Positions 2,784-36,585 of a DNA stretch of 39,381 nucleotides are shown here, in pieces. The notes under the pieces were generated by a model, which saw only the letters and a program-made list of their open reading frames with translations, did no database searches and had not been told where the DNA came from. The stretch comes from Gammaproteobacteria bacterium. GTDB taxonomy: Bacteria > Pseudomonadota > Gammaproteobacteria > Pseudomonadales > Pseudohongiellaceae. Made by a program: the position numbers and the translations under genes. Position 1 is the stretch's first letter. Each line of letters opens with the position of its first letter. Location: NCBI GenBank assembly GCA_030752195.1, contig JASMER010000002.1, forward strand, positions 1-39,381, in the 5' to 3' direction.

Positions 2784-4013
2784 TCAGGGCTTCAGCCCCA
2801 TTGCGCTTTGAGCAAACCTGCTGCGCATGGATGGCATGAGCTCCAGGCCCAGCAGCCCCAGCTTGCGGATCGCACTGTGACCCCATTGATTGTTTGAAAA
2901 CAGTTTCACCGTTTGATCGGTGAACAGCACCGATTCGAACTGATCCTGATTTTGCGATTCTAGATAGGCCTGCAGATTCCTCACCTCGCCGGGAGCAACC
3001 TGTTGCTCTTTTGCGATGACCAGCTGACGAACCAGGGCCGCAGAGTCGCGCAGGGCGAGGTTCAGACCCTGCCCGGCCACCGGATGTAAGGTGTGCGCCA
3101 CATTGCCCAACAGGACCAGTCCCGGCCTGACCTGCTCCCTGGCCAGCGTCAAAGACAGCGGATAGGCTACGCGCTTGCCGACCTGCATTATTCTGCCCAG
3201 TCGTTCTCCGAAGTACTGCGTCAGCATCGACATAAACGTCTCTTCGTCACAGCTGAGTAGTTCTTCCCGGTAAGATTCTAAGACAGTCCAGACGAGCGAT
3301 CCCCGATTCGACTTCTGAAAATCTGAAAGCGGAAGAACCGCAAGCGGACCAGACTCGGTAAAACGCTCGAAGGCAACCCCCGAATGTGGTCTCTCAAAAG
3401 CGACATTGGTGATAACAGCATGCTGGCCATAATCGGTTTTGGTTTGGTCGATTCCCAGACTTTCGCAAATAGAAGACCTGCCACCATCGGCTAACACAAC
3501 CAACTTGGCAAAGAGCTTGGTCAATTGCTCCTCGCGCGCAACCGTTAACTCCATCCCCGACCGACATGGTTTTATTTGAGTGATCGCAGCTGGAGCCAGC
3601 AGGCTAACTCCGGACGACGCCCGCATGGCCTCACCCAATACGTGGCCCAGTTCTCTATTTTCTATCACGTAACCCAGGGCTTCAACGCCATGCTCTGCGC
3701 TGCTGAGCGTTGTCCGACCAAAGTGTCCGCGATCACTTACATGTATCTCAATAATTGGTTCAACAAGCGGGGTGATCGCAGACCATAAATTCATGGTCTC
3801 GAAAATCTGCCTGCTCCCGAAAGATAGTGCAGTGGATCGCGAATCAAAGCTCGGTTGCTGATCGAAATTTGAACTGTCGACGGCTTCAACAACCAGAATG
3901 CTGTAAGCGCTGTCATTAATTTGTTGAGAAAGGTTCAGTGCGAAACTGGCGCCAACCAGACCACCGCCGACAACAACGACGTCACATTGGGTTGCTGAGT
4001 TCTGGACCTGCAT
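2784..4013 (-). CDS. UbiH/VisC(UbiI)-family FAD-dependent monooxygenase
   Basis: CDVVVVGGGLVGASFAL and GLVLLGNVAHTLHPVAGQGLNLALRD motifs; directly downstream of pepP. Confidence 0.8.
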   Translation of the reverse strand: MQVQNSATQCDVVVVGGGLVGASFALNLSQQINDSAYSILVVEAVDSSNFDQQPSFDSRSTALSFGSRQIFETMNLWSAITPLVEPIIEIHVSDRGHFGRTTLSSAEHGVEALGYVIENRELGHVLGEAMRASSGVSLLAPAAITQIKPCRSGMELTVAREEQLTKLFAKLVVLADGGRSSICESLGIDQTKTDYGQHAVITNVAFERPHSGVAFERFTESGPLAVLPLSDFQKSNRGSLVWTVLESYREELLSCDEETFMSMLTQYFGERLGRIMQVGKRVAYPLSLTLAREQVRPGLVLLGNVAHTLHPVAGQGLNLALRDSAALVRQLVIAKEQQVAPGEVRNLQAYLESQNQDQFESVLFTDQTVKLFSNNQWGHSAIRKLGLLGLELMPSMRSRFAQSAMGLKP

Positions 4014-4015
4014 AG

Positions 4016-5347
4016 CTAATGCGTCGACTCAGACATGAATGCTTCAATTTCTAAAACGGTTTTGGGCACACCTATACTGAGGATTCGATATCCAGACTTG
4101 GTTACCAGCACATCATCTTCGATCCGCACACCGATCCCACGCCATTGTTCCGGCACATCGGTGTTGTCAGGTGCAATATAAATTCCCGGCTCGATTGTAG
4201 TCACCATCCCAGCCTCCAACACACGCCAGGTTCCGTCGATTTTGTAATTGCCAACGTCATGGACATCCATACCGATCCAATGGCCAACACGATGCATGTA
4301 GAACTCTTTGTAGGCCTCGCTCTTGATGCACTGTGACAACGTGCCCTGCAACAGCCCTAACTTAATCAACCCTTTTGTAATCACCTTCACCGATGCGTTA
4401 TGGGGTGCATCCCAGAGCGCACCAGGTTTGACTTCTTCAATTGCGGCTTCCTGAGCTTTCAGTACTATTTCGTAGATCGCTTTCTGTTCATCGCTGAATT
4501 TACCGCTAGCCGGAAAGGTGCGGGTGATGTCAGACGCGTAGTATTCGTATTCACAGCCCGCATCAATGAGAACAAGGTCTCCCATTTCGATTGCCGCGTT
4601 GTTGGTGTTGTAGTGCAGAATGCAGGCGTTGTCCCCGGCAGCCACGATTGAACTGTAGGCAGGCGCACGACTGCCGTTGCGGGTAAAGGCATAAAGCAGT
4701 TCTGCCTCAAGCTCATATTCATGCACTCCGGGTCGGCAGAAAGCCATCGCCCGTCGATGCCCCTCCGCTGAAATTTTAGCAGCACGCTCCATCAGTTTGA
4801 TCTCGGCGGTACTCTTGAACAACCTCATTTCATGCAAGAGGTGATCAAGCATCAAAAATTCCCCCGGTGGACGCGCGCCCATTTTTGCCTTCTGGCGAAC
4901 CGTCTTTACCCATTCCATAACCTGATCATCGAACTTGTCGTCCTTCCCCATGGAGTAGTAGACGCGGTCTCTGCCCTCGATCAGGCCCGGCAGTATGTCA
5001 TCGATATCCGCGATCGGATAGGCATCATCAATCGCAAGATTCTGAATGGCCGCATCCGGGCCCATCAGGATGCCCGTCCACAATTCTTTCTCCTTGTTTT
5101 TTTCCTGGCAGAAAAGAACCACTTCTCCCTGCTTGCGACCGGGGATCAGCGCCAGCAGCGCGTGCTCCTCAGCAAACCCGGTCAGGTAATAAAAGTCACT
5201 GTTCTGGCGGTACAAATACTCCGCATCGTTGTTACGGAAACTCGGCGGGGCAGAGGGAACAAGGCCGATACTGTTGGGCTCCATTTGCGCCATCAACTCC
5301 TTCCGCCGAGTTCTCATTTCTTTATAGGGGTGGGATTTACCTGCCAT
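4016..5347 (-). CDS. pepP: Xaa-Pro aminopeptidase (M24B)
   Basis: NDAEYLYRQNSDFYYLTGFAEEHALLALIPG, metal-ligand segments LVLIDAGCEYEYYASDITRTFPASGKF, HRVGHWIGMDVHDVG, VTTIEPGIYI. Confidence 0.92.
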   Translation of the reverse strand: MAGKSHPYKEMRTRRKELMAQMEPNSIGLVPSAPPSFRNNDAEYLYRQNSDFYYLTGFAEEHALLALIPGRKQGEVVLFCQEKNKEKELWTGILMGPDAAIQNLAIDDAYPIADIDDILPGLIEGRDRVYYSMGKDDKFDDQVMEWVKTVRQKAKMGARPPGEFLMLDHLLHEMRLFKSTAEIKLMERAAKISAEGHRRAMAFCRPGVHEYELEAELLYAFTRNGSRAPAYSSIVAAGDNACILHYNTNNAAIEMGDLVLIDAGCEYEYYASDITRTFPASGKFSDEQKAIYEIVLKAQEAAIEEVKPGALWDAPHNASVKVITKGLIKLGLLQGTLSQCIKSEAYKEFYMHRVGHWIGMDVHDVGNYKIDGTWRVLEAGMVTTIEPGIYIAPDNTDVPEQWRGIGVRIEDDVLVTKSGYRILSIGVPKTVLEIEAFMSESTH

Positions 5348-5630
5348 GGGGACTACAAGACTCCTGTGTTAGTTTGCGGACCATCAGATCAAACGTGCTC
5401 ATCTGGATGATGAACCGGGTTGTAGTTGTGCAAGCATATCGGGCCGGCTGACGGGAACCAAGCCCATTTTTTTCACTCTTTCATTGACCGGAAAACACCT
5501 CGGCTCTATAGTTCATAAATTGCCTAAACAAACGCCGGTATAACGTTGCGGAGGGGTGAGTTTAATCCATTTCGACGAGCCGGTGCCCGCGCGATTTATA
5601 CGGTTCCCCAGCAAAAACAACTGACTACGT

Positions 5631-5837
5631 ATGAGCGAAGAAAGTTTTAACACCCTCAGCGGCAAAGTGGATGATCTGATTGATCTTTGCGCTGAAATGA
5701 AGCGTGAGAACCAGGCCCTAAAAGCGGAAAAGTCGAACTTGCAGCATGAGCGCCAGCAATTGATGGAAAAGAATCAGCTTGCCAAGACCAAATTGCGGTC
5801 GGTACTGGACCGACTGAAGTCCATGGGCGATTCCTGA
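5631..5837 (+). CDS. Short coiled-coil protein, ZapB-like / TIGR02449-type
   Basis: 68 aa heptad-rich sequence immediately upstream of zapA. Confidence 0.65.
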   Translation: MSEESFNTLSGKVDDLIDLCAEMKRENQALKAEKSNLQHERQQLMEKNQLAKTKLRSVLDRLKSMGDS

Positions 5838-5874
5838 GACGGCTCGCAACGCAAAGTTATTTAGGCGACAGAAT

Positions 5875-6189
5875 ATGAGTGAGCAAAACACCGCGGTACA
5901 AGTGACCATTCTGGATAAGGAGTATCAGGTCAGCTGCCCTCCTTCCGATCAGGAGGCATTGATCAAGTCTGCTCGCTATCTTGACGAGAGCATGCGGAAA
6001 ATAAAGGGCCGCGGCAACATACACGGCGCTGAGAAGATCGCTGTAATGGCAGCTCTTAACATCACCCATGACATGCTGCGCAAGAACCTGCTGATTAACG
6101 AAACCCGCCAAACCACTTCAGAGCAGGTACAAGCCCTCGAGGATAAAATCGATCTGGCTTTAGCGTCATCACGACAGCTTGAGTTTTAG
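5875..6189 (+). CDS. zapA: Cell division protein ZapA
   Basis: VQVTILDKEYQVSCPPSDQEALIKSARYLDESMRKIK...KIAVMAALNITHDML, canonical ZapA; conserved synteny with 6S RNA and 5-FCL. Confidence 0.9.
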   Translation: MSEQNTAVQVTILDKEYQVSCPPSDQEALIKSARYLDESMRKIKGRGNIHGAEKIAVMAALNITHDMLRKNLLINETRQTTSEQVQALEDKIDLALASSRQLEF

Positions 6190-6329
6190 CGTTACAAGCC
6201 ATGACCGCGAACGCGGCGTCGAATGGACGCCTCCAAGCCTGACTGACTCCGACCCCCCGTTTAACGAGATCAGGATTACCACGTGTCGGGAGCTTTCCCT
6301 GCCCCCGAAGCCCAAGTTATAATCTCATT

Positions 6330-6513
6330 GAGAGTTCCCTAGAACATTTGCCAGTCAAAAATGTTCTTGAGCCGATATTGTAATACCCGGAGGCAACTCG
6401 TTAGATGTTGTTGTGCAAGTCCGCAAGCCGGAAAGCCTTATGCATCACGGGAGCCACCACCTGAACCTTTCGGTTCAGGGCAACTTTGGTAGCGGTGTTC
6501 CGGGGGACTTGAT
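6330..6513 (+). ncRNA. ssrS: 6S RNA (SsrS)
   Basis: Located between zapA and 5-FCL as in many gammaproteobacteria. Exact GAGCCGATAT block at 6369-6378, GAAAGCCTTA near 6431, CACCTGAACCTTTCGGTTCAGGG hairpin, and a TATAAT -10-like element at 6318-6323. Ends approximate. Confidence 0.88.
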
Positions 6514-6544
6514 ATCACCTTCGCTAGACTGACCATAATCGATT

Positions 6545-7141
6545 ATGGATAACGACGAACGCCATACCCTGCGCGAGTCGCATCGGATGGCTCGCAATCG
6601 CCTGAGTAAAGAGGAGCAAGCAGCGGCAGCGGCAGCACTTTCCTCGTTAATTACCGCTCAGGATTTTTATCAGTCCGCCACGAAGATAGCGTTCTACCTC
6701 GCCATTGATGGCGAAATCGACCCTCAACCCCTGCTGTCACAAGCTTTGGCCGAAGGTAAAACCTGCTTTTTGCCAATTGCTGGCCAGCATGATGAACAAC
6801 TGCTCAGCTTCGCACCCTACGATAGCGCAACGGAGCTGATGGAGAACCAATGGGGCATAGCGGAGCCGCATGCGCCCGCCATCGCGGTCTCTCCCACCGG
6901 TTTTGATCTGGTTCTAGTGCCACTGGTAGCATTTGATCGGGAGTGCTATCGCCTCGGCATGGGGAAGGGGTTTTATGACCGAACGTTCAGTTTTAAAATT
7001 TTCAATCGAAGTAGACAGCCTCTGTTGATTGGGCTGGCACATGAGTGCCAGTTAGCAGAGCGGCTTCCCAACGAAAATTGGGATGTAAGTCTGGACGCGG
7101 TCGTAACCGCGGAGAAAATATACCGCCCGGATACTGCGTAG
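6545..7141 (+). CDS. fau: 5-formyltetrahydrofolate cyclo-ligase
   Basis: FDLVLVPLVAFDRECYRLGMGKGFYDRTF signature; downstream of 6S RNA. Confidence 0.9.
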   Translation: MDNDERHTLRESHRMARNRLSKEEQAAAAAALSSLITAQDFYQSATKIAFYLAIDGEIDPQPLLSQALAEGKTCFLPIAGQHDEQLLSFAPYDSATELMENQWGIAEPHAPAIAVSPTGFDLVLVPLVAFDRECYRLGMGKGFYDRTFSFKIFNRSRQPLLIGLAHECQLAERLPNENWDVSLDAVVTAEKIYRPDTA

Positions 7142-7514
7142 GGCGGTTCATAGCACTTCTCTGCCTATCCCTAGCGTCTCTGTCCCTTCTGGTTAGCGTA
7201 TACTGCATCCTACGGTACGGCAGTGCTATGGCAGGGCGCTACTGGCAAGCAAACTCATCCCGAATACTTCGAAAACTACGAATATCATTTCCGGTTTCTT
7301 ATTCATCGGTACTCTCAGGTACTGATTTCAGATAGAACTGCCGTTTTAGCTGATGAGGGCCTGATGACTGCCAGCAAATTCATCATACAGGGGGACTAAG
7401 TGCTTATTAACGAAGGCCTTCAGAGACAAATAAAGAAAAAGCAATTGATTACTGTCAATATGTAAAAAATACTTAAATATGCAAAAAGAGTTGCGCTTAA
7501 AAAAGCACTGGTCT

Positions 7515-7538
7515 TATACTGTATAAAAATACAGTATA
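7515..7538. promoter_or_regulatory. LexA (SOS) box upstream of imuA
   Basis: TATACTGTATAAAAATACAGTATA: perfect 10-bp inverted repeat around AAAA; core CTGTATAAAAATACAG at 7519-7534 matches CTGT-N8-ACAG. Confidence 0.92.
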
Positions 7539-7544
7539 AGTGGT

Positions 7545-8297
7545 GTGGATTTAAAAATGACTATTCTCAGAGACTCTGTCACTCAGCCAAAGGCCAATAT
7601 TGGCAAGGCGTTAAGTGACACCGCCTGCAACAGCAGAGGAGCCCCCTGGACAAGAGTAAATCAACTGCTGCACAGCAATCCAAACCTCTGGCGTGGTTGC
7701 GATATGGCCGGTCAAGGCTTTCACGGTATCGGCACTGGGTATCATGAGCTGGACGATATTCTACCGGGCCGCGGCTGGCCTAGCAGCGGCCTGGTTGAAG
7801 TGATTGCAAGACACTCGGGGATGGGAGAGCTACAGCTGCTCATCCCCCTGATGCAGTCAGTCATCAAGCAGGGGAAATGGATTCTCTGTGTGGCCCCACC
7901 TTATCTGCTTAATGCGCCTGCCCTGACTCAAGCTGGTATCGATATCGGACAGATCCTAATAGTGAAGCAAGACACGCCCTGTAAAGACGCGCTATGGAGT
8001 ATGGAAAAGGCGATGCAAACTGAAACCTGCGGGCTGGTGTTGGCCTGGCAGAACTGGCTACCGGGTAAAGTGCTACGCCGCCTGCAGCTTGCAGCTGAAG
8101 TTGGCGACACGCTGGCAGTCTTGTTCAAGCATAATGATAGCAAGTATTCACCATCGTCATTACGCCTGCAGATAAAGGGTTCAGTCACCGATAATCGCGA
8201 CTTTTCCCGGGCCGAAGTGACTGTCATCAAGGCTCGTGGCAACTTCAGGCCATTAAGTGCCCAGTTCAGTCTCTATCCGAAGACAGTGTCAGCCTGA
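7545..8297 (+). CDS. imuA: ImuA, translesion synthesis accessory protein (RecA/SulA-like)
   Basis: GTG start just after LexA box; GTGYHELDDILPGRGWPSSGLVEV, ALTQAGIDIGQILIV and C-terminal GNFRPLSAQFSLY; upstream of and overlapping the imuB ORF. Confidence 0.85.
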   Translation: MDLKMTILRDSVTQPKANIGKALSDTACNSRGAPWTRVNQLLHSNPNLWRGCDMAGQGFHGIGTGYHELDDILPGRGWPSSGLVEVIARHSGMGELQLLIPLMQSVIKQGKWILCVAPPYLLNAPALTQAGIDIGQILIVKQDTPCKDALWSMEKAMQTETCGLVLAWQNWLPGKVLRRLQLAAEVGDTLAVLFKHNDSKYSPSSLRLQIKGSVTDNRDFSRAEVTVIKARGNFRPLSAQFSLYPKTVSA

Positions 8298-8313
8298 GTC
8301 CGCAGAGAGAATC

Positions 8314-9792
8314 ATGGAGGATCCGAATAATTCGGCGCAAAAACCGGTGGCCACCGCCGGGTCACGTAAATCAGGCGTGATCAAGCTGCCCCTAGCTAAC
8401 CGCTGCGGGCCTGGTAAGCAGCGCCGTACCAATAACGAAAGCAATAAAGAACCTGCGAAATCTCGACCCAGGCGGCAAAGCCTCTGGTATGCGATCTATT
8501 TTCCGCAGCTAAGCGAACTCAGCGAATCACAACAGACGCAGATTCTCTATGAGTTAGCGGGTCTGGCGGAAAACGTCAGTGCCACCGTAAGCTTCCACTC
8601 TCAGGCACTGGTCTGCGAAATTCGCAGCAGCCTCAGATATTTTGGCGGGATAGACAATATCCACAGCAAGCTCCAGAGCCTGATTGTACCCGCACTGCAA
8701 ACCAGATCTCTGGGAGACAGCTTTCTCTATGCAGCCAGCCCAACAGTCAGCGGCAGTTTATTGCTGGCACGTTCAGGACATAATGCTCTGGTCTATCAGA
8801 AAGAAAACCTGCGCTCTGCCCTTGGAAAGCTATCTGTCGATGTACTCGATCTGCAGAAGGAGCAGCACCGGCGTTTGCACAACATGGGTGTCAGAAAAAT
8901 AAGGGACATCTGGCGTTTGCCAGTTGAAGGATTACATAAACGGTTTGGGAGTAATTTTGTCAATTCACTCAGCAAGGCAGCAGGCACAAGCCCTGAGCCA
9001 ACCCGAAACTATATACCCTCACCTGAATTTTCAGTTTCTTATGACCTTCCTTATGAAGTCGAGAATATAAATTATCTGCTGCCGATCATTGATGAAATAC
9101 TGATAAAACTTCGCGACTTCCTGATACAGAGAGATTTAAGTACCAGCCATCTGCTGCTGTCTATGGTCCATGAAAAGCGCAGCCGCACTGAAATTGACAT
9201 AGGCCTGAGACAGGCTACTCGACACCGTGACCACCTTTTATTACTAATAGAGACCCATTTTGCCCAACTTGCTGTACCTGCCCCTGTTGTCGGTTTAAAA
9301 CTCGAAGTCAAACAGTTCGATGCATTTCTGAGCGAAAGTGATGCCCTGTTAACAGAAGAGCGGGTGGAGTGCAGATCAAAAATTAACAGTAAGCACCTTG
9401 ATCAATTCATGGAGCAACTGCATGCACGCCTCGGCGATGATGCACTAAAGAGCATCAATACGATTGCTGAACATTGCCCGGAATATGCAACTCAACAGCT
9501 GAACTACGAAGACAAAAAGGCACAAATGTCGGCTACTGGAGTAACGAATAACCCACGTCCATTTTGGCTTCTGGATGAGCCCATTCAACTAACTTTAAAG
9601 GGCAGTAAACTGTATCATCGTCAGGCTATTACTTTGATCAGCGGCCCTGAACGTATCGAAACCTACTGGTGGTCAGGCCTAGATATTCTCCGCGATTACT
9701 ATATTGCAAGAGAACGAAATGGTAGCCGCCTGTGGGTGTTTCGAGAACGTAGTGGTGAGCGTAATTGGTTCCTGCATGGTTATTTTTCCTGA
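8314..9792 (+). CDS. imuB: ImuB, Y-family polymerase-like protein of the mutasome
   Basis: Y-family-like fold motifs (LWYAIYFPQL, EIRSSLRYFGG), RLHNMGVRKIRDIWRLPVEGLHKRFG, C-terminal YWWSGLDILRDYYIARERNGSRLWVFRERSGERNWFLHGYFS. ATG at 8314 is more plausible than the GTG at 8257. Confidence 0.87.
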   Translation: MEDPNNSAQKPVATAGSRKSGVIKLPLANRCGPGKQRRTNNESNKEPAKSRPRRQSLWYAIYFPQLSELSESQQTQILYELAGLAENVSATVSFHSQALVCEIRSSLRYFGGIDNIHSKLQSLIVPALQTRSLGDSFLYAASPTVSGSLLLARSGHNALVYQKENLRSALGKLSVDVLDLQKEQHRRLHNMGVRKIRDIWRLPVEGLHKRFGSNFVNSLSKAAGTSPEPTRNYIPSPEFSVSYDLPYEVENINYLLPIIDEILIKLRDFLIQRDLSTSHLLLSMVHEKRSRTEIDIGLRQATRHRDHLLLLIETHFAQLAVPAPVVGLKLEVKQFDAFLSESDALLTEERVECRSKINSKHLDQFMEQLHARLGDDALKSINTIAEHCPEYATQQLNYEDKKAQMSATGVTNNPRPFWLLDEPIQLTLKGSKLYHRQAITLISGPERIETYWWSGLDILRDYYIARERNGSRLWVFRERSGERNWFLHGYFS

Positions 9793-9985
9793 GCGAACTC
9801 ACCTGCACTGTTAGCGCACCATGAGCCTCCAGCAGATACTAGAACAAACAGGAATAGATAGTATGAATCCACTTCCCTGAACGCGGACTGAAAATAAGGA
9901 GCAATCGGTCCACACCAAAAAGAAAGTGCGATAGACGAAAGCCCCGGCAAGCAGCCAGGGCTTCGTGTCGAGCCCAGTAAAACCT

Positions 9986-10882
9986 TTAGGAGGGTTTGCG
10001 AAACCTGATCGTCATGCGGTCAGATTCGCCTATTGCCGCTGTCTCTGGATTGTCAGTGCGCGTAGGTGGCAATCGCCAGACGAGACCATCGGCCGGATCA
10101 TTGGGATTGGCGTTGATCTCGCTGGCTTCCTCAAAAGTAAAGCCTGCTCTCTCGAACGCAGCAATCACATCACTCTGTTTCAAGTAACCATTGTTACCGC
10201 TGGCAAACGCGGAGTCAGCATCTTCCGGTGCACGGTGCTGGACCACACCTACTACGCCACCGGGAGCAAGTGCGTCATAAACTTCGGCTAAAGCAGTATC
10301 GATAAGTGGCTCATCAAACCGAAACAGGTGATGCATGGCACGAAAAAATAGAGCCGCATCAACCTGACCATTCTCGGAGTCTGGAATATTGTCGATTGTA
10401 TACCCTATGATGGGTTGCGAAGGCTCAACTCCCTCTACGTCCAGGTAGCGAGCCATTTGAGTAATATCAGCACCCATACGCTCAATAGTCTGCTCATTCC
10501 ATGTGCCCATCATTTGTCTAAACAGAACGTCTGGATAGGTCACACCAATCAAACGACCTTGTTCAGCCGTCAACGGATTCAGAATCTGTGTATACCAACC
10601 ACCGTTAGCAGGCAGAACCTCAATAAGGGTCATATCTGGCTCAATTCCAAAGAAAGACAATGTATCCAGGGGGTGGCGCCATTCATCTCTACCCTGGTTA
10701 TCCGCCCTGCGTTCGTCATTAATGACGTCTTCCAGGCTGGGGCCAGTCGGCATACTCGTTTCTGCCATCGCCGGTGGAGCTGCGCTGGATGGGGAGTCAG
10801 CAGTTGAGGTTTCAGAGTCGTTAGAGCAAGCGGCCAACAGCAGGCCCATTGCGCTCATCGTAATTATTAGCTTGGCTTTCAT
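9986..10882 (-). CDS. Putative lipoprotein with class I SAM-methyltransferase-like domain
   Basis: Re-called start gives MKAKLIITMSAMGLLLAACSNDSETS (lipobox LLAAC) and motif I-like segment MTLIEVLPANGGWYTQILNPL. The longer 398-aa ORF start is not supported. Confidence 0.75.
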   Translation of the reverse strand: MKAKLIITMSAMGLLLAACSNDSETSTADSPSSAAPPAMAETSMPTGPSLEDVINDERRADNQGRDEWRHPLDTLSFFGIEPDMTLIEVLPANGGWYTQILNPLTAEQGRLIGVTYPDVLFRQMMGTWNEQTIERMGADITQMARYLDVEGVEPSQPIIGYTIDNIPDSENGQVDAALFFRAMHHLFRFDEPLIDTALAEVYDALAPGGVVGVVQHRAPEDADSAFASGNNGYLKQSDVIAAFERAGFTFEEASEINANPNDPADGLVWRLPPTRTDNPETAAIGESDRMTIRFRKPS

Positions 10883-11010
10883 GAAGTTCTCCTTAAGAAT
10901 CGCCTGACTTTTATGCTCTAAATGCGTTTTAGTGCTTCCAGGACCGATATTATTGGAAACATAATACTTGGGGCAGAGAGAAAGTAACTTCGATGAACGC
11001 GGTTGTCCAG

Positions 11011-14000
11011 CTACGTGAAGTCCCGAGATGAGACGTCCATTGCTCCTAACCAGTGACTGAGGTCGACCAGGTCTCTGGCAATAAGGTGCACAACACCATT
11101 GTTCTTCTGAACGTGCCCTACTACCCCTATCAACATCGCTTGACGAACAACCGGCCGCCGCTTTTCTCCAAGAGAAGGCCACACCACCACATTGACAAAA
11201 CCGCTCTCATCTTCAAGTGTAAGAAAGGTAACCCCTGCCGCCGTCATCGGCCGCTGTCGGCATGTGACCAGACCACTTATCTTGGCAGAGCCTTCATTGT
11301 CGATCAACGCAAGTTCATCAGCGCGCTGCACTCTGAAATGATTCAAGTGCGATCTGAACAGCGCGAGCGGATGGCGCCGAAGGGTAAAACCGGTAGATCT
11401 GTAGTCTGCGGCAATATTCTGGCTTTCACTGGCTACAGGCAGTAAGACGTCAGCACCAAAATCACTGTCGAAGCCTGGATCAGAAAAAAATAGCATCTGA
11501 TTCCCTGCATTAACAGATCTGACATTCTGGCCTGCGGTTTCAATGCCGCTGGCCTGCCAAAAGGCACGATGACGATCGCCGCTTAATTGATGTAGGGCAT
11601 CAGCTGCCGCCAGAGCCTCAAGGTCCTTGCGATTGATTCCGCTCTGAAAGACCAGGCTCTGGACGGTGTCGAACGCGCCCCCTTGGCGTGCTTCTAGAAT
11701 GGCTTCTGCGCCGGTCTGGGACAGACCTTTCACCATTCGCAATCCAATCCGTATTTTTGCTTCTGTATGATCATGACAAGGTGAGTTCGGTTTTACATAG
11801 CTACTGTCAAATTCCAGAGTACTGTCATAATGGCTCTGATTAACATCAACCGGAAGAATAATGACACCATGCCTCTGTGCGTCCTTGATCAGCTGCGCTG
11901 GGGCATAAAACCCCATAGGCTGGCTATTGAGTAAGGCACAGCAAAAAGCCGCAGGGTGATAGCGCTTGAGCCAAGATGAGACATAGGCAATGAGGGCAAA
12001 GCTGGCTGAATGAGACTCTGGAAAACCATAATCGCCGAATCCTTTGATCTGGCTAAAAAGCTTCTGTGCAAAATCTGGCTCATAACCACGGGCAAGCATA
12101 CCATCGACCAGTTTCTTATGGTACGGCTCTAAACCTCCCTTTCGCTTCCAGGCGGCCATAGCTCGACGCAGCTGATCTGCTTCTCCGCCGGTAAATCCAG
12201 CTGCCACCATAGCCAGCTGCATAACCTGCTCCTGAAATATAGGCACCCCCAGCGTTCTTTCAAGCGCCTCTTTAACTGCTTCGCTCGGATAACTAATAAG
12301 TTCTTTGCCATTACGCCGGTTCAGATAGGGATGAACCATATCTCCTTGAATAGGGCCAGGTCGCACAATCGCAATTTGAATAACCAGATCATAATAATTA
12401 CGAGGGCGAAGTCGTGGCAACATACTCATCTGAGCCCGTGATTCAATCTGGAATACTCCGATAGTGTCTGCCTCGCACATCATGTCATAGACCTTAGGAT
12501 CTTCTGCGGGGATGTTCTGCATTACGAGAGGTTGCTGACTGTAATCACTAACCAAGCGCAAACATTTTTGTACCGCCGTCAGCATTCCCAGCGCCAGTAC
12601 ATCTATCTTAAGCAGCCCCAGTGATTCCAGATCATCCTTCTCCCACTGGATCACAGTCCGCTCTGCCATACTGGCGTTCTCAATAGGAACCATATGCGTC
12701 AACGATCCTTGGCTGATGACAAACCCTCCCACGTGCTGGGAAAGGTGGCGCGGAAAACCGATTAGCTGACCGGCTAACGTCACCAGCATCCGGATTTTTC
12801 TGTCGCTGTAATCAAGGCCGGAGTCAGAAAGCTGTTCTTCGAGAGAAGAACCCCACCAATAGATGGATTTGGTTATACGATTGAGTAATGACTCTTCCAG
12901 ACCGAGCACCTTACCCACGTCCCGAATCGCGCTGCGAGAGCGGTAGGTAATAACGGTAGCAGCCAATGCCGCTCTGGCTCTGCCATATTTGTTGTAGATA
13001 TATTGAATGACCTCCTCACGACGCGCGTTCTCAAAATCCACATCAATATCCGGAGGCTCGTTCCGCTCTCTGGAAATAAACCGTTCAAATAGAACCTCTA
13101 CCCGGGCCGGATCCACCTCAGTAATTCCGAGGCAATAGCACACAGCCGAATTGGCAGCTGACCCGCGCCCCTGACACAAAATGCCCTGATTGCGAGCAAA
13201 GGTCACCAGGTCATGCACTGTGAGGAAGTAATGCTCATAGTTGAGCTCTTTGATAAGCATCAGCTCATGTTCAATCAGATTGCGTACCTTAGGGTTAGCA
13301 CCTTCTGGCCAGCGTGTCCGGATCCCGACCTCGGTCAGTTCACGTAGCCAACCGTGCGCAGTGTACTCAGGCGGTACCAGCTCCTCGGGATACTCATAAC
13401 GCAGCTCATCCAGCGAGAACTTACAGCGATCAGCAATTTCCGTTGTGGCAGCCAGCAGTGTTGGAGGGTACAACTTGGCCAGTTGTTTGCGACCCCGAAG
13501 ATGGCGCTGAGCATTGCACTCTCCCTCCAGTCCGAGCTCATTGATGGCGCGCCGCAAGCGAATCGCGGTTACTGTGTCCTGCACAATGCGCCGACTTGGC
13601 ACATGCATGTAAACACCACCTGTTGCGCACAAGGGTATTGCGTACTGCTCACCTAAGCGCTGTAGAAATCGTAACTTCCTCAGGTCATCTCCCCGGAGCA
13701 GCAATTCGACCCCAATCCATAAGCGCTTACTGAATAATCGGTGCAGCCATACTGCTTGATGTGCTAGATGCTCAGGAGCATGGTTCAGGTCAGGTAACCA
13801 TAGGGCTAAGCAATCACTGGGCAGGTGCTGCTCTACCATTGCGTAATCCATATGGTAGTTACCCTTGGCGGTGTCCTTACGAGCGCAGCTGATCAAATGA
13901 CTTAAATGACCATAACCACGCCGATTACAGGCCAGCAGAACGAAATGGCAGCCTTCCTCCAGATGAAATTCGCTGCCAATAATCAGTTCAATACCTCTCT

Positions 14001-14223
14001 CCTTAGCAACCGCATGTGCGCGCACTACCCCGGACAAGGAGCACTCATCAGTAATGGCGATTGCCCGGTAGCCCAGCTCGTCAGCACGCTCTATCAGCTC
14101 CTCCGGAAAAGAAGCGCCGCGCAAGAAAGTAAAATTCGAAAGGCAGTGCAATTCAGCATAATCTGGCAGCCCGGGAGAGCACTCCGGGTTCAGGACCGTT
14201 TCATGGAGGGGTTTTGGTGGCAT
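11011..14223 (-). CDS. dnaE2: Error-prone DNA polymerase III alpha subunit DnaE2
   Basis: YAELHCLSNFTFLRGASFPEELIERADELGYRAIAITDECSL (PHP), GRGSAANSAVCYCLGITEVDP, PDIDVDFENARREEVIQYIY; 1070 aa; LexA box at start. Confidence 0.95.
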   Translation of the reverse strand: MPPKPLHETVLNPECSPGLPDYAELHCLSNFTFLRGASFPEELIERADELGYRAIAITDECSLSGVVRAHAVAKERGIELIIGSEFHLEEGCHFVLLACNRRGYGHLSHLISCARKDTAKGNYHMDYAMVEQHLPSDCLALWLPDLNHAPEHLAHQAVWLHRLFSKRLWIGVELLLRGDDLRKLRFLQRLGEQYAIPLCATGGVYMHVPSRRIVQDTVTAIRLRRAINELGLEGECNAQRHLRGRKQLAKLYPPTLLAATTEIADRCKFSLDELRYEYPEELVPPEYTAHGWLRELTEVGIRTRWPEGANPKVRNLIEHELMLIKELNYEHYFLTVHDLVTFARNQGILCQGRGSAANSAVCYCLGITEVDPARVEVLFERFISRERNEPPDIDVDFENARREEVIQYIYNKYGRARAALAATVITYRSRSAIRDVGKVLGLEESLLNRITKSIYWWGSSLEEQLSDSGLDYSDRKIRMLVTLAGQLIGFPRHLSQHVGGFVISQGSLTHMVPIENASMAERTVIQWEKDDLESLGLLKIDVLALGMLTAVQKCLRLVSDYSQQPLVMQNIPAEDPKVYDMMCEADTIGVFQIESRAQMSMLPRLRPRNYYDLVIQIAIVRPGPIQGDMVHPYLNRRNGKELISYPSEAVKEALERTLGVPIFQEQVMQLAMVAAGFTGGEADQLRRAMAAWKRKGGLEPYHKKLVDGMLARGYEPDFAQKLFSQIKGFGDYGFPESHSASFALIAYVSSWLKRYHPAAFCCALLNSQPMGFYAPAQLIKDAQRHGVIILPVDVNQSHYDSTLEFDSSYVKPNSPCHDHTEAKIRIGLRMVKGLSQTGAEAILEARQGGAFDTVQSLVFQSGINRKDLEALAAADALHQLSGDRHRAFWQASGIETAGQNVRSVNAGNQMLFFSDPGFDSDFGADVLLPVASESQNIAADYRSTGFTLRRHPLALFRSHLNHFRVQRADELALIDNEGSAKISGLVTCRQRPMTAAGVTFLTLEDESGFVNVVVWPSLGEKRRPVVRQAMLIGVVGHVQKNNGVVHLIARDLVDLSHWLGAMDVSSRDFT

Positions 14224-14235
14224 GATGACATGAAG

Positions 14236-14263
14236 AAAATACTGTATTTATATACAGTATTTT
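14236..14263. promoter_or_regulatory. LexA (SOS) box upstream of dnaE2
   Basis: AAAATACTGTATTTATATACAGTATTTT: perfect 12-bp inverted repeat; core CTGTATTTATATACAG 14242-14257. Exact TTGACA (-35-like) on minus strand at 14282-14277. Confidence 0.93.
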
Positions 14264-14370
14264 TGAGAACGCCTGATGTCAACCCGAAACAACAAAAACC
14301 GACACCCGGTGCCTAGAAAAGTGCCAAACGCTGCCCGACTGACTGACAGGGGCGCAACGGGTTTCTGCCA

Positions 14371-35689: not shown

Positions 35690-36571
35690 TCAATCAGGGC
35701 GCCGATGGCGCGTAAAGAACGCAGCCAAAGCCTCGCGGTCTTGGTCTGTCAATCTGCTGGTGTTGAACTCGATCACTTCGTTCATGTCGCCACCGACAAA
35801 CTCACCTTCGGGCTTCATACCCAACATGAGAAACAGATCGAAATTGGCAGCAGTCCAGTGTGCTAGTGCTTCTGAGTCAATGGGTTCAATAATCTCATCA
35901 CCCAACTGACTGCCGCCGAACTCTCGACTCCAATCTGGTATGCCAAGGCCGTTCCTGGGGGTATGACATTCTCCGCAATGCCCGAGATTTCTTGCAAGAT
36001 AGGCGCCACGAGCCACAGTTTCATCAGCGAATGTCTCTCTGTCCGGCTGGGACAGATCAGCAAGCCTGTTCCAGCCGGCAATCATCCAGCGGCGCAACCA
36101 TGGAGCCGGTTCGGGCTCCGGTGACCGGAAATCAACAGCGTCCAGCGATAGCATATAAGCCGCCATATTCAGCACATCTTCATCACTCAACCCCGCATAG
36201 GAGCGATAGGGGAAAGCCGGGAAATAGTAACTGCCATCCGGTGCCCGCCCATATTTGACCGCATTGATAAAGTCACCGCCAGACCAGTTACCGGTGCCGC
36301 TGACCGGATCGGGCGTAATATTAGGAGCGTAGAAAACACCAAAATCCGTGCTCAATGCAAGACCTCCACTAGGACTCTCAGGACGCTTCTCACCCTTGTG
36401 ACAGCTAATACAGCCGCCAGCGCTGAACAGGTATTCCCCTCGCGCAACTGCATCGTCGCTGCTCGGGATCACGGCGTTAACTGCAGCGGGTGGGGGAGCG
36501 AACACCCAGAAAAGCGCACCGGCCATGGCCGTCAGACCTGACAGCGAGAGCGTTACTGAGAATCTGTTCAT
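35690..36571 (-). CDS. Diheme cytochrome c
   Basis: Two CxxCH motifs (CISCHKG, CGECHTPRN), N-terminal signal/anchor. Confidence 0.9.
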   Translation of the reverse strand: MNRFSVTLSLSGLTAMAGALFWVFAPPPAAVNAVIPSSDDAVARGEYLFSAGGCISCHKGEKRPESPSGGLALSTDFGVFYAPNITPDPVSGTGNWSGGDFINAVKYGRAPDGSYYFPAFPYRSYAGLSDEDVLNMAAYMLSLDAVDFRSPEPEPAPWLRRWMIAGWNRLADLSQPDRETFADETVARGAYLARNLGHCGECHTPRNGLGIPDWSREFGGSQLGDEIIEPIDSEALAHWTAANFDLFLMLGMKPEGEFVGGDMNEVIEFNTSRLTDQDREALAAFFTRHRRPD

Positions 36572-36585
36572 GCTAACAGCCCCAT

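Follow-up and report, generated by a model that had tools for sequence, protein, structure and literature searches.

The genes for the error-prone C-family DNA polymerase DnaE2 (ImuC) and its accessory factors ImuA and ImuB form a split, convergent mutasome cassette in a gammaproteobacterial genome of the family Pseudohongiellaceae, and this layout is an old rearrangement common to the family rather than an oddity of one genome. The DNA analyzed here, referred to as the window, is a stretch of 39,381 nucleotides (contig JASMER010000002.1 of assembly GCA_030752195.1, positions 1 to 39,381), in which imuA and imuB lie on the + strand, dnaE2 lies on the - strand facing them, and each arm is preceded by a LexA-type box (Table 1). 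Very probably, the locus encodes an ImuA-ImuB-DnaE2 translesion mutasome that has been vertically inherited, was rearranged once, and is now organized as two LexA-type transcription units.

A convergent cassette shared by Pseudohongiellaceae

An original prediction, made from the window alone, described imuAB and dnaE2 as split and convergent, and the cassette is confirmed in this form by the agreement of gene coordinates, strands, and matches to curated models; the three genes do not form a single co-directional imuA-imuB-dnaE2 operon. ImuA passes the NCBIfam equivalog model NF033429 (173.4 bits against a cut-off of 150) and DnaE2 the error-prone DNA polymerase model NF004225 (1411.5 bits against 939). 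The polymerase also matches the Pfam domains DNA_pol3_alpha, finger, PHP, and OB, and contains the catalytic motifs PDIDVDF and LLKIDVLALG. For imuB, the longest open reading frame starts at GTG 8257 and overlaps imuA.

To place this arrangement, 137 Pseudohongiellaceae genomes were searched for DnaE2, ImuA, and ImuB, a locus being counted when dnaE2 lay on the same contig as imuB or imuA and within 60 kb of it (n = 93). Records that carry a name are Pseudohongiella, OM182, or unclassified Gammaproteobacteria, with one labelled SAR86; NCBI places Pseudohongiella in the Pseudohongiellaceae, Pseudomonadales, and the family consists mostly of marine bacteria. Convergence was found in 90 of the 93 loci, over four genera, and the layout, which the original prediction had regarded as unusual, is thus the rule in the family. 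Of the three exceptions, one (G123) has its dnaE2 32 kb from imuAB and is rearranged, yet its polymerase falls inside the family DnaE2 clade. The other two, in G008 (L003) and as a second copy in G073 (L010), are collinear, encode DnaE2 proteins outside the family clade, and are extra copies that were likely acquired horizontally.

Outside the family, the picture is reversed. In an even sample of 245 genomes from the order, each of the 87 loci that fell within 40 kb in other families is collinear, and a sample of 239 genomes from the class yielded 39 collinear loci and one divergent locus, the sole convergent locus within 40 kb being the window itself. The textbook single operon from which the prediction started is also too narrow a picture: split cassettes with separate SOS boxes have already been described (PMC3901139). 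A DnaE2 tree of 98 sequences united the 75 convergent rows and G123 in one clade with a support of 100, for which a single rearrangement at the base of the Pseudohongiellaceae is the simplest reading. Separately, one locus of the class sample (G572:C5:103221-107641) carries imuA and dnaE2 divergently, 812 bp apart, with no room for imuB between them.

Table 1. Coordinates of the cassette, its putative control elements, and nearby features in the window
Feature	Position	Strand	Details
imuA	7557-8297	+	RecA/SulA-like mutasome subunit, 246 amino acids from ATG; longest open reading frame from GTG 7545
imuB	8314-9792	+	inactive Y-family-like scaffold, 492 amino acids from ATG 8314
dnaE2 (imuC)	11011-14223	-	error-prone C-family polymerase, 1070 amino acids
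LexA-type box, imuAB arm	7517-7536		TACTGTATAAAAATACAGTA; 20 bp before imuA ATG
LexA-type box, dnaE2 arm	14240-14259	-	TACTGTATATAAATACAGTA; 16 bp before dnaE2 ATG
Putative imuA promoter	7491-7521	+	TTGCGC, 18 nt, TATACT; -10 overlaps left end of LexA box; consensus match only
Putative dnaE2 promoter	14254-14282	-	consensus TTGACA, 17 nt, TACTGT; -10 is left end of box
Intervening gene	9986-10882	-	lipoprotein; weak methyltransferase-like domain (Pfam Methyltransf_12, E = 0.002, below cut-off)
6S RNA	6333-6510	+	Rfam RF00013, 77.2 bits; locus context only

LexA-type boxes and promoters of the two arms

Both arms start with a CTGT-N8-ACAG palindrome, the palindrome arms of the two boxes matching at 8 of 10 and 9 of 10 positions (counted by hand). 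When the 20-base pattern was searched with up to two mismatches, no site other than these two turned up in the 2.07 Mb assembly, and the reversed control gave none. The shorter core ACTGT-N8-ACAGT occurs twice in the assembly and its reversed control also twice, so that the core alone is not significant. A third CTGT-N8-ACAG in the window (36564-36579) is devoid of the flanking A/T of strong boxes and was taken as chance, and no Gram-positive or alphaproteobacterial LexA motif was found in the window. The claim that each arm carries an independent palindrome is thus borne out, and relatives extend it. In a scan of 100 loci plus the window (775 kb in total; strong boxes defined by a score of at least 22 of 26), strong scores occurred only directly upstream of mutasome genes, with a few tandem pairs at imuA. 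Within the Pseudohongiellaceae, a box precedes imuA in 75 of 75 testable loci and, where enough sequence lies upstream, dnaE2 in 73 of 73, the family dnaE2 genes without a box (L100, L137, and L159) being situated at contig ends. By comparison, none of 18 compact collinear operons from other families has a strong box before dnaE2 (scores of 13-21, most of them at the level of shuffled sequence, with the 21.0 of L175 falling inside imuB).

The box also accompanies dnaE2 and imuA when these genes have moved. Both collinear loci with a displaced dnaE2 (L160 and L178, where it lies about 8 and 11.5 kb away) have a dnaE2 box. In one Pseudohongiellaceae sub-clade, imuA now lies apart from the other two genes (L094, L095, L102, and L154, with L150-L153); a box is found at each of imuA, imuB, and dnaE2, with imuB and dnaE2 still convergent. 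In L096, imuA and imuB diverge around one shared box. Because a dnaE2 box is present in every testable family arm and in none of the compact operons, SOS control appears to have been rebuilt on each piece after the operon broke. The box thus goes with the transcription unit, a pattern that provides strong comparative evidence for selection of SOS control on each piece.

On this basis, we propose a single break in an ancestral imuA>imuB>dnaE2 operon, at the base of the Pseudohongiellaceae, which would have left dnaE2 inverted and facing imuAB, each piece forming its own LexA-repressed transcription unit. At either box, bound LexA would overlie the -10 region. Upon DNA damage, RecA-stimulated cleavage of LexA would free both -10 regions simultaneously, so that accessory factors and polymerase could be co-induced without co-transcription, with promoter strength free to differ between the arms, and the three proteins would then assemble into one complex. 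Several points weigh against this reading. The surveys of the order and of the class covered samples of genomes, and among the 123 non-family loci from the order, 36 were uninformative (genes on another contig, no imuA found, or a distance above 40 kb). Furthermore, lexA was not found in the window's own assembly, which is 79% complete, and we infer LexA to be the repressor here from the boxes and from knowledge of the gammaproteobacterial SOS response.

The two arms also differ in their putative promoters. In the window, the -35 element of imuA (TTGCGC) has three of six consensus matches, compared with the full TTGACA of dnaE2, and across the family a -35 with five or six matches is found in 45 of 73 dnaE2 arms versus 3 of 75 imuA arms. 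This suggests that the promoter strengths of the two arms differ, and it lends indirect support to the earlier proposal that polymerase and accessory factors are separately tuned. It is conceivable, if somewhat short of probable, that such tuning is what the split achieves, the basal promoter of dnaE2 being stronger than that of imuAB. However, a consensus match is not equivalent to promoter activity, box strength and untranslated regions matter too, and the -35 difference may be an incidental result of the new promoter's origin.

A shortened ImuB and a variable space between the arms

Besides the inversion, a second change at the level of the family concerns ImuB. The window protein gave no Pfam match at the usual threshold, its IMS domain going undetected, while four ImuBs from other families do match the IMS Pfam PF00817. 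It nevertheless aligns end to end with the ImuBs of its relatives and, over its last ~420 residues, with those of other families. The distance from the first palm strand (LWYAIYFPQL) to the palm motif (EIRSS) is 36-61 residues in 76 family ImuBs versus 93-134 in 20 from other families; relative to the latter, all 76 are devoid of about 55 residues of the fingers region, a loss that fits the undetected IMS domain. Alignment with the 20 other-family loci indicates that the window ImuB keeps the thumb/little-finger region, the RecA-NT-like stretch, and ImuB-C. By inspection, its EIRSS motif has no DE pair, the catalytic carboxylates being absent. ImuBs often carry deletions yet keep the thumb, little finger, and ImuB-C (PMC12926913), and the shortened family protein is thus a lineage case of a known tendency. 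An AlphaFold model of the window ImuB (mean predicted local distance difference test score, pLDDT, 58; predicted template modelling score, pTM, 0.32) was too poor for a fold search. As a separate observation, IMS-domain (DinB/UmuC) genes were also not found in the 79% complete assembly.

The clamp-binding motifs vary as well. The internal LF clamp-type motif that most ImuBs from other families carry is degenerate in the window (SDALLT, ~9330-9360), and an N-terminal Q-L-x-L motif is present in 40 of 76 family ImuBs and in none of the 20 from outside, which have shorter N termini. At this N-terminal position (8314-8380) the window protein reads AQKPVA, which is again degenerate. Possibly, the clamp-binding site was relocated in the family and then lost in the window. 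A broader proposal is that the whole mutasome was rebuilt at the base of the family, acquiring convergent arms, a stronger polymerase promoter, an ImuB without fingers, and a clamp motif shifted to the N terminus from its place ahead of the RecA-NT stretch, and would consequently be differently regulated and loaded; we regard this as rather unlikely.

The original prediction had the two units facing each other across a gene. A gene does separate the arms, which are 1.2 kb apart in the window; it is not a neutral spacer, because it follows dnaE2 on the - strand, in the same orientation and 128 bp downstream. A consensus scan of the gap between dnaE2 and this gene returned no terminator or promoter, and the gene could be reached by read-through from dnaE2. 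It is restricted to the closest relatives (L023, L034-L037, L063-L067, and L078) and absent in G079, whose imuB is 86% identical, which marks it as a recent local insertion. A part for this gene in the system was considered and rejected, since most genes found in the gap bear no relation to one another from sub-clade to sub-clade; by inspection, their products include VOC-type proteins, an EamA-type transporter, and an HD-GYP-type protein. Given this variation, the gap acts as a tolerant insertion site. On the far side of imuA, the block ubiH-pepP-zapA-6S-ygfA (2784-7141) precedes the cassette; its protein-coding part is conserved in genus relatives and anchors the locus.

Convergence might itself be functional, with antisense RNA or polymerase collision limiting or timing mutasome output under selection. 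The convergent layout persists over the sampled family tree, and in 36 of 75 family loci the convergent stop codons overlap or are no more than 150 bp apart. Because no consistent bidirectional terminator is conserved between the convergent stops in these 75 loci, transcript overlap between the arms is possible. In the other 39 loci, however, the window included, 0.9-6.5 kb of unrelated genes lie between the arms, so that tight tail-to-tail contact is not conserved. The layout could have been retained because each arm has a promoter of its own, so that pressure to revert is lacking, and a selected role for convergence appears improbable.

Equally improbable in our estimation is that the native dnaE2 was replaced by a foreign one that landed inverted with its own SOS promoter. 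Such an event would account for the promoter and box before dnaE2, which are missing from compact collinear operons. However, within the sample, the nearest outgroup by identity is G140 (family f5) for both ImuB and DnaE2, and for ImuA, too, this genome ranks with the nearest, as would be expected had all three proteins been inherited vertically.

The prediction had also raised a possible assembly inversion. In five other records (L063-L067) and in the relatives L125 and L141, the region from imuB across the intervening gene to dnaE2 aligns at 89-96% identity with no rearrangement, L065 and L067 ending part-way through it. One of these records, L066, is a single-cell genome (AG-899-E05), metagenome assemblies of close relatives are also among the records, and the one-contig family genomes G034, G134, G135, and G136 carry the same convergent layout. 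Even though the assembly is fragmented into 394 contigs, of which the window is one, these independent assemblies, the single-cell genome, and the complete one-contig genomes rule out misassembly for practical purposes and leave virtually no chance that the layout is private to this genome.

Known mutasome cassettes and the meaning of the split

According to a review, almost every arrangement of the cassette is known, among them one with the three genes at separate loci, each under an SOS box of its own (PMC3901139). ImuC function depends on imuA and imuB in Pseudomonas aeruginosa and Pseudomonas putida (PMC5261740). The Pseudomonas and Caulobacter imuA-imuB-imuC(dnaE2) operon resembles the present locus in its three proteins and in the LexA-type box before imuA; here, in contrast, an inverted dnaE2 comes with a separate box and promoter, and ~55 fingers residues are missing from ImuB. 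A closer parallel to the split is found in mycobacteria, where imuA'-imuB and dnaE2 form two separate SOS-controlled loci, accessory factors in one and polymerase in the other (PMC3901139), although those loci are unlinked and encode ImuA2/ImuB2-type proteins, whereas the arms described here are adjacent and convergent. Dispersed imuA, imuB, and imuC loci share with the family the property, stated in the same review, that the box follows each detached gene (PMC3901139); they differ from the Pseudohongiellaceae sub-clade with imuA moved (L094, L095, L102, and L154) in that there imuB and dnaE2 are still convergent. By title and abstract, literature searches returned nothing relevant on a convergent cassette or on SOS in Pseudohongiella. 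The split cassette is thus a known kind, and its family-wide convergent form appears to be undescribed in the searchable literature.

Rather than a new system, the Pseudohongiellaceae cassette is a neat natural experiment in operon breakage, in which the three genes occur in a single clade as convergent, further split, and divergent pieces, while related families keep them in one operon; in all testable cases from the family, the SOS box goes along with the piece. The shortened ImuB, found family-wide, is a natural minimal scaffold on which the indispensable parts of this protein could be identified. The layout also offers a way to test whether a mutagenic polymerase depends on co-transcription for its stoichiometry and timing.

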